NCBI RefSeq assembly: GCF_012027305.1
Contig: NZ_SNUF01000001.1
Coordinates: forward strand, 1,116,001 to 1,180,000
Source: Thermococcus sp. MAR1
Lineage (GTDB): Archaea; Methanobacteriota_B; Thermococci; Thermococcales; Thermococcaceae
Reading direction: 5' to 3'
Length of the DNA: 64,000 nucleotides
The notes beneath the pieces were generated by a model. The model was given only the letters and a program-made list of their open reading frames with translations. It made no database searches and was not told the origin of the DNA. A program made the translations under genes and the position numbers. This document shows positions 23,943-30,074 of the stretch, in pieces (the first letter of the stretch is position 1; each line of letters begins with the position of its first letter).

Positions 23943-24044
23943 GTGGCTTTGTTTCCCCTTCGGAACTATTATGGGACCTTATTCGAACCAATTCTCTCTG
24001 TTTTCAGCCATGAAAAAATGAACATTTCAAGGCATTTTAGTTAG
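23943..24044 (+). CDS. Candidate small ORF upstream of feo
   Basis: A GTG-started frame of 33 codons (MALFPLRNYYGTLFEPILSV then 13 more residues). GAAAGGA lies 9 bases upstream, and a TATA box plus TGTGCATA-like motif lie 40-55 bases upstream. Its stop codon falls inside the first feo iron box. No family recognised. It may be a real small protein, a leader or chance; the rest of 23869-24191 holds only regulatory sites. Confidence 0.25.
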   Translation: MALFPLRNYYGTLFEPILSVFSHEKMNISRHFS

Positions 24045-24059
24045 GTTAGCCTAACCCAA
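24041..24059. promoter_or_regulatory. DtxR-type iron box upstream of the feo promoter
   Basis: TTAGGTTAGCCTAACCCAA matches 18 of 19 positions of the bacterial DtxR consensus. It lies about 45 bases before the feo TATA box (about 24105-24112). Confidence 0.72.
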
Positions 24060-24118: not shown

Positions 24119-24156
24119 TTCGGTTAGCCTACTCGGATATTATTAGGAAAACCTAA
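24119..24156. promoter_or_regulatory. Two further iron-box-like sites at the feo transcription start and leader
   Basis: A degenerate box (TTCGGTTAGCCTACTCGGA, 24119-24137, 14 of 19 positions) overlaps the start expected about 25 bases after TATTTAAG (24105-24112). A second palindrome, TTAGG-AAAA-CCTAA, follows at 24143-24156 in the leader. Together with the box at 24041 this gives three stacked sites, consistent with tight iron repression of feo. Confidence 0.55.
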
Positions 24157-24191: not shown

Positions 24192-24404
24192 ATGAAGCTG
24201 AGCGAAGTTGAGCCTGGGAGAACCGTCAAAGTCAAAGAAATAACCGGCGGACCAAAGGCCCGCTTTATGGCAATGGGGATTAGCAGGGGGACGAAGATCA
24301 AGGTTCTGAAGAGGGCCCCACTCGGGGACCCCATAGCGGTTGAGGTTCGCGGCTACAAGCTGTCGTTGAGGAAAGACGAAGCAAGGTTCATCGAGGTGGA
24401 GTGA
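24192..24404 (+). CDS. feoA: FeoA-type SH3-like protein (first copy)
   Basis: 70 residues from ATG 24192 (GGAGGTGGG upstream); the in-frame ATG at 24168 lies before the ribosome site. The FeoA pattern is clear: L..EPGRTVKVKEITGGPKARFMAMGISRGTKIKVL with AVEVRGYKLSLRKDEAxFI. FeoA binds FeoB and supports Fe(II) uptake. First gene of feoA-feoA-feoB-membrane protein, under three iron-box-like sites. Confidence 0.9.
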   Translation: MKLSEVEPGRTVKVKEITGGPKARFMAMGISRGTKIKVLKRAPLGDPIAVEVRGYKLSLRKDEARFIEVE

Positions 24405-24629
24405 ATGGCACCCCTTAGCTTTCTCAACGAGGGTGCAAAGGCAAGGATCGTCCAGATAGTGGGGGGCAAGGGCGTCTTCGCGAGGCTCACGGCACTCGGC
24501 CTCGTCCCGGGGAGGGAAGTTAGGGTCGTTAGAAACCAGATGGCCGGCCCGCTGATAGTGGCCGTTGACGACACCCAAATCGCCCTCGGTAGGGGGCTCG
24601 CGATGAAAATCCTCGTGGAGGTGGAATGA
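24405..24629 (+). CDS. feoA: FeoA-type SH3-like protein (second copy)
   Basis: 74 residues; its ATG directly abuts the stop of the first copy. Same fold: EGAKARIVQIVGGKGVFARLTALGLVPGREVRVV and a C-terminal ALGRGLAMKILVE strand. It differs clearly in sequence from the first copy, so the two probably have distinct contacts with FeoB. Overlaps the feoB start codons. Confidence 0.9.
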   Translation: MAPLSFLNEGAKARIVQIVGGKGVFARLTALGLVPGREVRVVRNQMAGPLIVAVDDTQIALGRGLAMKILVEVE

Positions 24630-26647
24630 TGGGTGAAACCGTAATAGCTTTAATTGGAAACCCCAACGTCGGTAAAACGACGATTTTCAACGCTCTAACC
24701 GGTTTGAAGCAGCACGTTGGCAACTGGCCAGGCGTCACCGTCGAGAAGAAGGAGGGCGAATTAGAGTACAGGGGCAGGAAATTCCACGTGGTTGACCTGC
24801 CGGGCGTCTACGCGCTGACGGCTTATTCCATAGACGAGAAGATAGCGAGGGACTTCATAGTCCGCGAAAAACCCGACCTCGTTGTGGACATCGTTGACGC
24901 GTCCAACCTTCAGCGCAACCTCTACCTAACCCTGCAACTCCTCGAAATAGGGGCCAATGTAGTAGTGGCCCTGAACAAGGTTGATCTGGCCGAGGAGAAG
25001 GGCATCAAGATAGACCCTAAGAGACTTGAGGAGGCCTTGGGTGTTCCCGTTGTCCCGATGGTCGCCTCCAAGGGGGAGGGGATAGAGGAGATCAAGAAGG
25101 CCATCGCCGAGAACCTCGGAAGGAAGCCAAAAACGCTGAGGTATCCGAACTTCGAGCCTTACATAGAACGCCTCGTAAAGGTAATAGAACTCGACGGGAA
25201 GCTCGCGGGGGACTACAACCCGCGGTGGCTCGCCATAAAGCTCCTCGAAGGGGATGAGGGCATCAGGGGCATCATCGAGGGCAGCGAGAAAAGGGACGAG
25301 GTAATGAAGGAGCTGATAAACGTAAAGAAGGAACTTGAGAGAAAGTACGAGGACCTTGAGCTGGCCTTCGCCGACGGGAGGTATGGGCTAATCGATCAGA
25401 TCACCAAGAGGGCGATAGTGGCGCGCGAGGAGAGGATGACCTTCTCTGAGATGCTCGACGAGGTCTTCACCCACAAGTACCTCGGCATACCCATATTCAT
25501 AGGCATCATGTGGGCAACCTTCAAGTTCACCTTTGACGTATCCGCTCCGTTCAGCGACATCATAGACTGGTTCTTTGGCTGGCTCGGCGATGCCGTTGGC
25601 TCCCACATAGCCAACGATGCCCTGGCTTCCCTCCTGAGGGACGGAATCATAGCGGGCCTCGGAAGCGTCCTTGTGTTCCTGCCGCCGATAGCCTTCCTGT
25701 TCCTGGCCTTCTCGTGGCTTGAGGACAGCGGGTACATGGCGAGGGCGGCCTTCGTTATGGACAGGGTCATGCACCGCTTCGGCCTCCACGGAAAGTCCGT
25801 GATACCGATGATAATGGGCTTTGGATGCAACGTTCCGGCTATAATGGCCACAAGAACGCTCGAAGACGAAAAGGACAGAATTCTAACGATACTCGTGAAC
25901 CCTCTGATGTCCTGCCCGGCGAGGCTCCCCATTTACGCCGTCTTCGCAGGGGCCTTCTTTGCAGGGAAGGAGGGAACGGTGATAACGAGCATGTACCTCC
26001 TCGGGATAGGCCTCGCGCTGGTGATAGCGTGGCTCTTCAGGAAGTTGATCTTCAAGGGCGAGCCGTCCTACTTCATAATGGAGCTTCCCCCGTACAACAG
26101 GCCAAACTGGAGGGGAATCCTTGGCGCTACGTGGGCGAGAACTGAGAAGTTCCTGAAGAAGGCTGGAACTGTGATCTTCGGGGGAGTAGTGGTCGTCTGG
26201 CTGCTCTCGGTTACCGGGCCAAGTGGCTACCTCGGCTCGGAGGCACTTGAAAACGGCGAGCTGTTGGTCAAATCGTGGGTAGCAGTGCTCGGCCATGCCC
26301 TTCAGCCGCTCTTCAGCCCGATGGGCTGGGACTGGAAGGCAGCGGTAGCGCTGTTCTTCGGCTTCATAGCAAAGGAGATAGTCGTTGGAACACTCGGTGT
26401 GCTTTACGGCGTTGGTGGGGAAGAAACAGCAGTATCGCATGCGATAGCGGCGAGTGGAACCTTTACCCCCGTTACAGCCTACGCCTTCATGGCGTTCTCG
26501 CTGATATACGTGCCCTGTGTGGCAACAATCGCCGTCATAAAGGGTGAAGCGGGCTGGAAGTGGGCCCTGTTCGCAGTGGCGTACGAGATAATCTTGGCCT
26601 ATCTCGTGGCCCTCGCGATAGTTGGAATAGGGGGTGTACTGGCATGA
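24629..26647 (+). CDS. feoB: Ferrous iron transport protein B
   Basis: 672 residues. An N-terminal G domain (GNPNVGKTT at about 10-18, DLPGVYAL, NKVDLA) and helical GDI spacer precede about eight membrane helices with the two Gate motifs, the first containing the cysteine in MGFGCNVPAIMATR. FeoB carries Fe(II) inwards. I choose ATG 24629, 5 bases after GGAGGTGG; ATG 24626 is the alternative. Co-transcribed with two feoA copies and a small membrane protein. Confidence 0.95.
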   Translation: MGETVIALIGNPNVGKTTIFNALTGLKQHVGNWPGVTVEKKEGELEYRGRKFHVVDLPGVYALTAYSIDEKIARDFIVREKPDLVVDIVDASNLQRNLYLTLQLLEIGANVVVALNKVDLAEEKGIKIDPKRLEEALGVPVVPMVASKGEGIEEIKKAIAENLGRKPKTLRYPNFEPYIERLVKVIELDGKLAGDYNPRWLAIKLLEGDEGIRGIIEGSEKRDEVMKELINVKKELERKYEDLELAFADGRYGLIDQITKRAIVAREERMTFSEMLDEVFTHKYLGIPIFIGIMWATFKFTFDVSAPFSDIIDWFFGWLGDAVGSHIANDALASLLRDGIIAGLGSVLVFLPPIAFLFLAFSWLEDSGYMARAAFVMDRVMHRFGLHGKSVIPMIMGFGCNVPAIMATRTLEDEKDRILTILVNPLMSCPARLPIYAVFAGAFFAGKEGTVITSMYLLGIGLALVIAWLFRKLIFKGEPSYFIMELPPYNRPNWRGILGATWARTEKFLKKAGTVIFGGVVVVWLLSVTGPSGYLGSEALENGELLVKSWVAVLGHALQPLFSPMGWDWKAAVALFFGFIAKEIVVGTLGVLYGVGGEETAVSHAIAASGTFTPVTAYAFMAFSLIYVPCVATIAVIKGEAGWKWALFAVAYEIILAYLVALAIVGIGGVLA

Positions 26648-27142: not shown

Positions 27143-27805
27143 TTAGATTTCCAGAACACTCCCCGTTCTCACTCCAATGAACTTTTCAGGATATTTCCTC
27201 CGCACGTACGCCTTCGCATCCTCCCCAGAACAGTGGGCAGGAGCTATGAACTCAGTCAACTCCGACAACCTATCGAGAGTCCTGGCCGAGGGGTAATGAA
27301 AACCACCAATTACGAGGTGGGCTTTCCCATAGCCAGAAACCTCAAGGACCGCCTTGGTGAGCCCATCAACGCCCGGATGGGAACAGCCAACGATGACAAC
27401 GAGGCCTGAAGGAGTTTCAACCCCGATAGCTTGCTCAAAACCGTTTAAGGGCCCCGAAGTCCAAACCCCGGCCTCAAGGTCACCGGCCTTTGCCACCTCC
27501 CTAACCCGGAGCCCCCATTGTCTCACCATCGTCCCGTTTCCCGGCGGGGCGTAGAGAGGAATTCCCGGATTCAGCTCCCCTACTATGGGGAAACCGCCGT
27601 AGTGGTCGTAGTGCCAGTGGCTTAGCACAGCGAAATCAAGGTTTTGAAGAGAGAGACCCAGTACCTTGGAATTATGGAGGAGAATCTCCCTTTTAGTGTC
27701 CGCATCAAATATGAAGCGGCTTTTTCCCTCAGCCAGAACGCTCCAGCCCCAGTCGTTGAGGAAGCCCTTTCCTGGGGTATTGTCGTTGAGGACGAGGATC
27801 CGCAT
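27143..27805 (-). CDS. Metallo-beta-lactamase-fold hydrolase (COG1237 type)
   Basis: 220 residues from ATG 27805 after GGTGTGATG; a longer frame to 27862 would overlap the previous gene. The LSHWHYDHYGG metal site, GCSHPGV, GGFH and the terminal PAHCSG histidine are in order. The NDNTPG start and WGWSVL/AE pattern are of the COG1237 subfamily, some members of which act in methanopterin-type pterin synthesis. Last gene of an operon headed by two KaiC-like proteins. Substrate unknown. Confidence 0.82.
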   Translation of the reverse strand: MRILVLNDNTPGKGFLNDWGWSVLAEGKSRFIFDADTKREILLHNSKVLGLSLQNLDFAVLSHWHYDHYGGFPIVGELNPGIPLYAPPGNGTMVRQWGLRVREVAKAGDLEAGVWTSGPLNGFEQAIGVETPSGLVVIVGCSHPGVDGLTKAVLEVSGYGKAHLVIGGFHYPSARTLDRLSELTEFIAPAHCSGEDAKAYVRRKYPEKFIGVRTGSVLEI

Positions 27806-27867
27806 AACATCACACCCAAATATCAGCTCCATTTTGAAGGCTTCCATCCCGGAGCCCCTCAAAGCCC

Positions 27868-28452
27868 CTAATCCGCAATTTCCACGCCCCCAGAGAGCCT
27901 CCTCGGACAGTACTTGACCTCACAGAAGGTACACACCAGCTTCGTCTTGACTTTTTCCGGGGTTTTTATGAGCATCCTCTCGATTCCGCCTATCCCCTCG
28001 ATCTTGGAAATCGCCTCCCCGCTTATCGGCCTCTCCACGACGATGGAGAAGTACGGCGCTTCCCCCGGAAGGTTCCCGAACCTGACCGATATCGGCCTGT
28101 TCCCGTCCCTCAAAAGGACGTCCAGCACGGCGGGCAATGCCCTTCCATCATCATCCGCCAGTTTGAGCTCCAGCACCTCCCAGTTCATGGCGGGGGCGAG
28201 ATCCTCGATTCTCAGCTCCGGGCGGAGCCTCTCAAAGAGAAGCCGGAGGGCGTTAGTGTTCTCTATAGTCTCAACCGTGAGGTACACGACCTTTCTCGTC
28301 ACCCCCGTCGCCCTCGCAACCTCGGTTATGGGGAGCTCGACCCCGTCAAGGAGCATCGAACCGTTGCGGATTTCGATACCGTGCCTGAGCAGGAACTCGG
28401 CGACCTTTTTCCGGGCGGGGTAATGCCTGAAGTATTCGTCTATGAGGATCAT
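27868..28452 (-). CDS. Predicted regulator with HTH and ACT-like domain (COG2150 type)
   Basis: 194 residues. The first half contains an HTH (LPITEVARATGVTRKVVYLTVETI); the second half resembles an ACT ligand-binding fold (APYFSIVVERPISGEAISKIEGIGGIERMLI). The C-terminus carries a three-cysteine cluster CTFCEVKYC that could bind a metal or Fe-S cluster. COG2150 members are annotated as regulators of amino acid metabolism. It overlaps the preceding gene by 4 bases. In this iron-box-controlled operon the cysteines make a metal sensor plausible; inference. Confidence 0.72.
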   Translation of the reverse strand: MILIDEYFRHYPARKKVAEFLLRHGIEIRNGSMLLDGVELPITEVARATGVTRKVVYLTVETIENTNALRLLFERLRPELRIEDLAPAMNWEVLELKLADDDGRALPAVLDVLLRDGNRPISVRFGNLPGEAPYFSIVVERPISGEAISKIEGIGGIERMLIKTPEKVKTKLVCTFCEVKYCPRRLSGGVEIAD

Positions 28453-29144
28453 CTTCCCACCTTCTTTTCACGGATTATCCTCGCCGTTCTTTCGGCGACC
28501 TCCTTCTTGGTCCCCTCGAACATTTCGCGCGGGAACTCGAAGGGAATATCCTCCCGAGGCGCGCTTCCGCGGAACTTCAACGGCCTGATGTAAACTTCAT
28601 CCCTCCTCTTAAGGAACTCAAGGACGTTATCCGCGTTCTCGGCGAGTTTCCTGTTGTGGTCCCCAAACATCGCAGAGTTGACGGCCACGAAGGATACAAC
28701 CCTCTCCCTTCCAAGCCAATCCAGGAGAACATCCACCAGCCGCTCTTTTTCCCCGCTTCCGATCAGGAGGAGAGTAAACGACGGAATAACGACTATGCTT
28801 TTTTGATCAGCCATGTCGAGGGCGCGCTTCAGCTGCTCCGGCTCCGAGAAGTTGCCGATGTAGTAGCCGGCGTCCGCCCTTTCGACTTGGGCGCACGAGG
28901 GCTGGTAGTCGAGAAAGGTTATCCCGCGGATTCCCTCGTCGTCCATGCCAAAAATTCGCAGGTTCCTGAGAACGCCGCAGACCGGTGAACTGGTCGCAAA
29001 GTAGAGGACGTCATACTCCGGGTGCACATTCAGGAACTCGACGATGAATCTCTGGGCGAAGAGGGGCTTCGCCGCGGCCATCGGGCCGGAAAGAAGGGTA
29101 AAGGCGGGAAGCTCGAACTCAAACCCCCAAAAGCCGAACCTCAT
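28449..29144 (-). CDS. KaiC/RecA-like protein with degenerate Walker A
   Basis: 231 residues, RecA-fold layout (strand, P-loop position, ATSSPV strand, a Walker-B-like VVIPSFTLLLIG strand, later VSFVAVNSAM). The P-loop reads SGPMAAAKPLFAQ: the glycines are lost and the residue after lysine is proline, so ATP hydrolysis is doubtful. Two cysteines (SSPVCG, QPSCAQ) are present. GAGGTGGGAG precedes the ATG. It follows its paralogue by 9 bases, and the pair may form a hetero-oligomer with one weak and one dead site. Confidence 0.75.
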   Translation of the reverse strand: MRFGFWGFEFELPAFTLLSGPMAAAKPLFAQRFIVEFLNVHPEYDVLYFATSSPVCGVLRNLRIFGMDDEGIRGITFLDYQPSCAQVERADAGYYIGNFSEPEQLKRALDMADQKSIVVIPSFTLLLIGSGEKERLVDVLLDWLGRERVVSFVAVNSAMFGDHNRKLAENADNVLEFLKRRDEVYIRPLKFRGSAPREDIPFEFPREMFEGTKKEVAERTARIIREKKVGR

Positions 29145-29153
29145 GCTCCCACC

Positions 29154-29912
29154 TCACAGCCTCTTTATCGCGGGAATGAGGTTCTTCTTACCCCTCTCCG
29201 CCTCTTCCCTGATTTCATCAAGGATTTCACGAGAAAGGGGAACTTCGACCTCCTTCCGCTCAAAGGGCGCCCACTTCACCCGCTCGACTCTCAAGAAGAG
29301 CCTCATGGGCTTCTCCATCCTGCTGAACATAAGGTTGTCCGCGGCCCCCTCAAGCTCCTCCACCATATCCCTGAAAACGTCGGTGTTGACCGTGAAGAAG
29401 TACGTTTTTGTTTTGTTCGACGCTAGTGTATCCATTATCTTCCTGTGAATGGCCCTTCCGTAGGTCGGGGAGAAGAACAGCAGGTTGAGGGCGGCGCCGA
29501 CGACCATCGTTCCGAGGGGGGCTATCGTTTTCGGTACGTTGCTGAGGTAAACGCTCGCCAGCGCAAGCGCCTCGTCCCATATCTCAGGCTTTACAAAGTT
29601 CGCCCTGATGTGCTCGTCCGAGACGATCTCAATGCCCTCTATGCCTGGATCGAGCTCCACGAAGAAGACCCTGCTCCCGTAGTCGTCCAGGTCGGCGCCG
29701 AGGAGACCCATAGTGTTTCTCAGGTACTCAAGCGTCGTACTCGTCAGCAGGAAAACCACGTTCCCGCCGTTCTTAAGCCAGCCGGAAGCGAAGATATATC
29801 CGATGAGGGGCTTTCCAGAGCCGCCGGGACCGCTCACAAGCGTCGAAGTGTTGGAAGGAAACCCCCTGGGGATTATCCCTCCGATCCAGGGAATCCCGAG
29901 TTTCACGAGCAC
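29154..29912 (-). CDS. KaiC/RecA-like P-loop protein, first gene of an iron-box operon
   Basis: 252 residues from GTG 29912, 4 bases after GGAGGTGG (GTGs at 29921 and 29906 are alternatives). It begins LGIPWIGGIIPRGFPSNTSTLVSGPGGSGKPL, as in KaiC-type proteins, but the P-loop has proline where Thr/Ser should coordinate Mg. VVFLLTSTTLEYL matches the KaiC second strand. A near-perfect DtxR-type box lies at the promoter. The downstream genes are a paralogue, an HTH/ACT regulator and an MBL-fold enzyme. Function unknown. Confidence 0.78.
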   Translation of the reverse strand: MLVKLGIPWIGGIIPRGFPSNTSTLVSGPGGSGKPLIGYIFASGWLKNGGNVVFLLTSTTLEYLRNTMGLLGADLDDYGSRVFFVELDPGIEGIEIVSDEHIRANFVKPEIWDEALALASVYLSNVPKTIAPLGTMVVGAALNLLFFSPTYGRAIHRKIMDTLASNKTKTYFFTVNTDVFRDMVEELEGAADNLMFSRMEKPMRLFLRVERVKWAPFERKEVEVPLSREILDEIREEAERGKKNLIPAIKRL

Positions 29913-29928
29913 CGAAACCACCTCCGAG

Positions 29929-29947
29929 TTAGATTAGCCTAACCTAA
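29929..29947. promoter_or_regulatory. DtxR-type iron box at the KaiC-like operon promoter
   Basis: TTAGATTAGCCTAACCTAA matches 18 of 19 positions of the bacterial DtxR consensus. It lies on the expected leftward transcription start, about 20 bases after the TATA-like TATAATTC (29963-29970, minus strand), and 17 bases before the GTG at 29912. Confidence 0.72.
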
Positions 29948-30074
29948 TTCCACTTTTGATGTGAATTATACACACTTTAAACATTACGGTTCAAAAATGG
30001 ATAATCAGTTAACGTTCTGACCAGGGTTCGTCCGAACTTTGGAGGAAGGAAAAAAGCACGGGAGGATCACGGAT

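Follow-up and report, generated by a model that had tools for sequence, protein, structure and literature searches.

Gene organisation of the locus

The window analysed here is a stretch of 64,000 nucleotides (G000:C1:1116001-1180000) from the 2.0 Mb genome of Thermococcus sp. MAR1, designated G000. Four genes lie on its minus strand as originally predicted, with the reading frames and both unusual P-loops described. These are kaiC-a, kaiC-b and a TrpY-type HTH/ACT gene (trpY), together spanning 29912-27868, with a metallo-beta-lactamase-fold (MBL) gene next to them. In this genome the operon adjoins feoAAB. The features are as follows.

29976-29981, minus strand: TATA element TTTAAA, its centre 31 bp upstream of the iron box
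29929-29947, minus strand: iron box TTAGGTTAGGCTAATCTAA, 18 of 19 positions identical to the IdeR/DtxR consensus
29154-29912, minus strand: kaiC-a, predicted pseudo-ATPase of the KaiC fold; first possible GTG at 29921 (open reading frame 29154-29921)
28449-29144, minus strand: kaiC-b, a diverged paralogue of kaiC-a
27868-28452, minus strand: trpY, TrpY-related HTH/ACT protein with a C-terminal CTFCEVKYC cluster
27143-27805, minus strand: metallo-beta-lactamase-fold hydrolase (MBL)
24192-26647, plus strand: feoA-feoA-feoB (feoAAB), ferrous iron uptake operon with a box of the same class as that of kaiC-a
24143-24156, plus strand: iron half-site TTAGGAAAACCTAA before feoA
24041-24059, plus strand: second iron box TTAGGTTAGCCTAACCCAA before feoAAB

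The gap of 9 nt between kaiC-a and kaiC-b, and the 4-nt overlap of the kaiC-b stop with the trpY start, form the pattern expected for a single transcript of the three genes. The true start of kaiC-a is probably the GTG at 29912 (codon 4), since the start codon of the relatives aligns there and a GGAGGTG ribosome site overlaps the first GTG. The MBL gene probably starts at the ATG at 27805, as judged from its alignment with relatives of 217-218 amino acids; it is probably cotranscribed with the operon here, and lies outside the conserved unit.

Loss of catalytic residues in the KaiC-like pair

KaiC-a matches the Pfam family KaiC (PF06745) above the cut-off (E 1.2e-9), and KaiC-b stays below threshold by sequence (E 0.009). 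The AlphaFold model of KaiC-b (pLDDT 89) is matched by Foldseek to ArlH/FlaH, PH0284 and KaiC (E about 1e-7, TM about 0.6). The model of KaiC-a has a pLDDT of only 37, so its fold assignment relies on sequence, with matches to KaiC and PH0284 besides the Pfam family. By fold, both proteins are members of the KaiC-like superfamily, as indicated by PF06745 for KaiC-a and by the predicted structure for KaiC-b.

Catalytic positions were read by aligning both proteins with canonical KaiC-like proteins and with ArlH sequences from the same order. The Walker A pattern GxxxxGK[T/S] is absent from both proteins, which have GPGGSGKP and GPMAAAKP with proline in place of Thr/Ser. The lysine-proline P-loops of the original prediction proved invariant, GPGGSGKPL in 11 of 11 KaiC-a sequences and GPMAAAKPL in all eight of KaiC-b. 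The catalytic Glu pair (EE) is replaced by Thr-Ser in both families, and the Walker B Asp by Gly142 in KaiC-a and Pro121 in KaiC-b; these replacements, which the earlier description had missed, are also invariant within each family. Its wording, 'catalytically weak', is therefore too mild, three groups of motifs being lost. With the P-loop Thr/Ser, the Glu pair and the Walker B Asp all lost, neither KaiC-a nor KaiC-b is expected to hydrolyse ATP, and both are predicted to be pseudo-ATPases. The P-loop lysine and the fold are kept, so binding of a nucleotide or phosphate may be possible. Neither protein showed an assignable metal-binding motif.

The best Foldseek match of KaiC-b is ArlH (4yds), likewise a single KaiC domain, and in Thermococcales ArlH, too, lacks the KaiC Glu pair where the alignment would place it (SSQYTT). 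ATP is bound but not hydrolysed by ArlH, which stimulates ArlI (PMC8978795). However, ArlH is an archaellum protein that retains both GKS and the Walker B Asp, whereas the present pair has GKP, no Walker B Asp and a Feo context; against the NCBIfam ArlH equivalog, KaiC-a scored 21 bits (cut-off 215) and KaiC-b gave no match. The archaeal single-domain KaiC-like ATPases (PF06745; PH0284-type, thermo_KaiC_1) resemble the pair in fold and N-terminal sequence, with 36% identity across residues 6-97 to a KaiC-like protein also encoded in G000, but differ in that here the catalytic motifs are replaced and the genes stand under an iron box.

Profiles of the two families align over 197 columns (98%; hhalign, E 2e-13). 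As both share the Lys-Pro P-loop and Thr-Ser at the Glu pair, the sequences suggest that the duplication came after the catalytic losses. The dN/dS values (NG86; dS high and partly saturated) of 0.05-0.10 for kaiC-a, 0.15-0.23 for kaiC-b and 0.12-0.24 for trpY are low, which indicates that all three genes are under purifying selection.

Iron box and the shared operator of Feo genes

The published IdeR/DtxR consensus of 19 bp is TTAGGTTAGSCTAACCTAA, with the half-site defined as TTAGGNNNNCCTAA (PMC8464063). The near-perfect iron box claimed at the start of transcription is borne out by its 18/19 match and by its constant distance from the TATA element, the TATA centre lying 30-32 bp from the box in nine of the ten kaiC-a promoters and 26 bp in that of G065. 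Lack of conservation had been named as grounds for abandoning the prediction; the nine other promoters read all retain the box, that of G065 as the half-site only. The kaiC-a promoter thus bears the conserved 19-bp box or TTAGGNNNNCCTAA half-site by which a DtxR/IdeR regulon is recognised in sequence.

Three sites with up to two mismatches occur in the 2.0 Mb of G000, before kaiC-a, before feoAAB and at C1:23234, and none in the reversed control; this control, together with the constant TATA spacing, rules out a chance box. The third site precedes a gene for a small HExxH-containing protein, with a recombinase-like gene in the region (L047:4852-5253, corresponding to G000:C1:22851-23252). Boxes with at most one mismatch were found in 11 of 94 Thermococcales genomes, nine of which carry kaiC-a or its remnant, and all stand before kaiC-a or feoAAB, except for the C1:23234 site and one in G009. 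The latter genome is without kaiC-a; its near-perfect box is located where an HTH-CBS gene ends (L074:1501-1519), just upstream of a gene resembling an FAD-dependent dehydrogenase.

FeoB1 of the window scores 735 bits and FeoB2, a second FeoB of the relatives, 409 bits against TIGR00437 (cut-off 316), which places both among FeoB proteins. The promoters of feoAAB and of the universal feoAB carry 19-mers and/or half-sites, and in genomes without kaiC-a the Feo promoters also bear the 19-mer or close variants, plus half-sites. The motif is therefore not private to the kaiC operon but serves these archaea as their iron-uptake operator. Its role as an autoregulatory TrpY operator is disfavoured, as the same motif precedes feo operons in genomes without kaiC (G024, G038, G046; universal feoAB). 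The arrangement resembles that of bacterial IdeR/DtxR regulons, in which the canonical 19-mer or 14-mer half-site precedes Feo genes, but the promoter here is archaeal and a KaiC-like pair is a member of the regulon.

G000 encodes a DtxR-type protein (G000:C1:204333), and DtxR-domain matches are present in 94 of 94 genomes. MntR models give the G000 protein its best score, and manganese rather than iron could therefore be the metal sensed. Metal-dependent repression of the kaiC operon by DtxR is a prediction, with this protein as the putative repressor.

The TrpY-type regulator

The HTH/ACT protein aligns over nearly its full length with the NCBIfam family TrpY_fam (NF053754; 82.6 bits against a cut-off of 180, E 3e-23). 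The alignment covers the HTH and ACT regions, and the protein is a relative rather than a member of the TrpY family, from which it differs by its sub-cut-off score and the additional C-terminal cysteine cluster. The cluster is present as originally noted, but is not specific to the operon: a TrpY-type paralogue elsewhere in G000 (L050:1471-2064) has the same C-terminal CxxCxxxxC, which rules out the cluster as an operon-specific sensor. Regulators of this type with the cluster possibly form a metal-binding subfamily.

Distribution and neighbourhood in relatives

An intact kaiC-a, or one cut only by a contig end, is present in 10 of the 94 genomes (G000, G003, G022, G041, G049, G050, G059, G064, G065, G067) and kaiC-b in seven, while kaiC-a is absent from about 80. 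Broken remnants of kaiC-a were detected in G016 and G005 (L045:5800-6435 and L044:5748-6114), with the iron box intact in G016; the two losses are apparently independent. Such repeated loss, along with the widespread absence, shows that kaiC-a is dispensable. A phylum search of 115 genomes gave no kaiC-a relatives outside Thermococcaceae. Mobile or viral origin was rejected, as plasmids held no kaiC-a relatives and viral contigs neither kaiC-a nor kaiC-b, and a defence system was likewise set aside, PADLOC giving no match.

The four-gene order of the original prediction is not conserved. The kaiC-b gene is missing in G022, G064, G065 and G003, with trpY missing there in G022 and G003, and the MBL gene stays near the operon in relatives but is mostly separated from it by a hisC paralogue and mrp on the opposite strand; on this synteny MBL was rejected as a core member. 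The conserved core is thus the iron box with kaiC-a, usually accompanied by kaiC-b and trpY.

The neighbouring Feo systems had also been overlooked. Five relatives (G041, G050, G059, G065, G067) carry FeoB2 and an HTH-FeoA fusion divergent from kaiC-a-(kaiC-b)-trpY-hisC paralogue. In most of them wtpABC lies beyond FeoB2, along with a modD-like gene; in G041, FeoB2 is separated from the modD-like gene by an insertion of two methyltransferase-like genes (L040:2155-3557). The end of an HTH-FeoA fusion adjoins kaiC-a at a contig edge in G049. In G003, which represents another genus, kaiC-a and feoA-feoA diverge, and boxes stand on either side. The locus of the window genome lacks FeoB2, hisC and mrp.

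FeoB2 is about 30% identical to FeoB1 (loci with the fusion: L041:3528-5976, L038:8569-10452, L039:3705-6120, L040:3563-5996). The fusion, of 187-189 amino acids, precedes FeoB2 and is a poor match to DtxR models. Every genome with a close homologue of it also has kaiC-a or kaiC-b. MntR of P. gingivalis, which contains FeoA domains and regulates the FeoB-type manganese transporter FB2, is comparable to this HTH-FeoA fusion beside a second FeoB; however, the fusion is archaeal, shorter, has one FeoA domain and is not in the window genome.

Proposed role of the pair and alternative explanations

Control by the iron box and loss of the ATPase residues are well supported at the level of sequence. 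On this basis the pair is tentatively interpreted, at somewhat under even likelihood, as a KaiC/ArlH-like adaptor for the uptake of ferrous iron that is repressed by DtxR and does not hydrolyse ATP. The Fe(II)-loaded repressor of DtxR type would sit on the box at the start of transcription and keep the operon off, and under iron shortage the operon would be transcribed together with feoAAB. KaiC-a and KaiC-b, presumably derived from one KaiC/ArlH-like ancestor in which catalysis had already been lost, would most likely form a (hetero-)oligomeric adaptor, comparable to the non-hydrolysing ArlH that regulates ArlI. The likeliest client would be the Feo machinery, at the level of the FeoB G-domain or FeoA. 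The identity of the repressor, oligomerisation, nucleotide binding and the target are inferred, the adaptor role being suggested by gene neighbourhood and analogy. No partner is indispensable by itself, since in G022 kaiC-a is retained at a locus that lacks kaiC-b, FeoB2 and trpY alike. A more specific form of the adaptor, in which a hetero-ring of the two pseudo-KaiC proteins is made only in iron starvation and gates or couples Feo transport without ATP hydrolysis, is speculative and rather unlikely.

The main rival, doubtful but deserving serious weight, makes the pair a signalling cassette for the cotranscribed TrpY-type regulator, the oligomer sensing nucleotide or amino-acid state and holding or releasing this regulator of amino-acid genes in iron starvation. 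It agrees with the overlap of trpY with kaiC-b, with the position of trpY directly after kaiC-a where kaiC-b is lost (G064, G065) and with the hisC paralogue next in most relatives. Archaeal KaiC-like proteins were, in addition, reportedly proposed by Makarova in 2017 as signalling hubs. However, kaiC-a is not followed by trpY in G022 and G003, the hisC of G000 lies elsewhere, and trpY is less conserved than kaiC-a.

An iron-responsive function apart from uptake, in iron sparing or Fe-S metabolism, with Feo nearby only through shared regulation, is improbable. The gene of an mrp/ApbC-type Fe-S carrier and the conserved MBL near the operon in relatives would fit it, as would the cysteine cluster, but mrp lies on the opposite strand and is missing from the locus in the window genome, the cluster is shared with the paralogue outside the operon, and KaiC-a and KaiC-b offer no assignable metal site. 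That the pair are degenerate relics heading for loss, as the patchy distribution and the true pseudogene remnants (G005, G016) might imply, is very improbable: the unusual P-loops are invariant, purifying selection is strong, the frames are intact and the operator is conserved at a fixed spacing.

Significance

KaiC-like proteins are abundant in archaea, and to our knowledge very few of them have a known role beyond ArlH. The pair was originally said to have no described function, and none was found in the libraries and literature searched; a mention in the KaiC survey of Makarova (2017) is possible. The pair is a variant within a known fold family; its regulatory setting is new, its fold is not. 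The specific and conserved address (iron starvation and the Feo neighbourhood), together with the prediction of no ATP hydrolysis, makes the role of the pair testable in Thermococcus strains carrying the operon. The pair would illustrate how selection keeps a dead RecA-fold ATPase, and it aids in defining the operator through which archaea respond to iron. The hetero-ring reading, if true, would add to ferrous-iron transport an accessory system that has not been described before.
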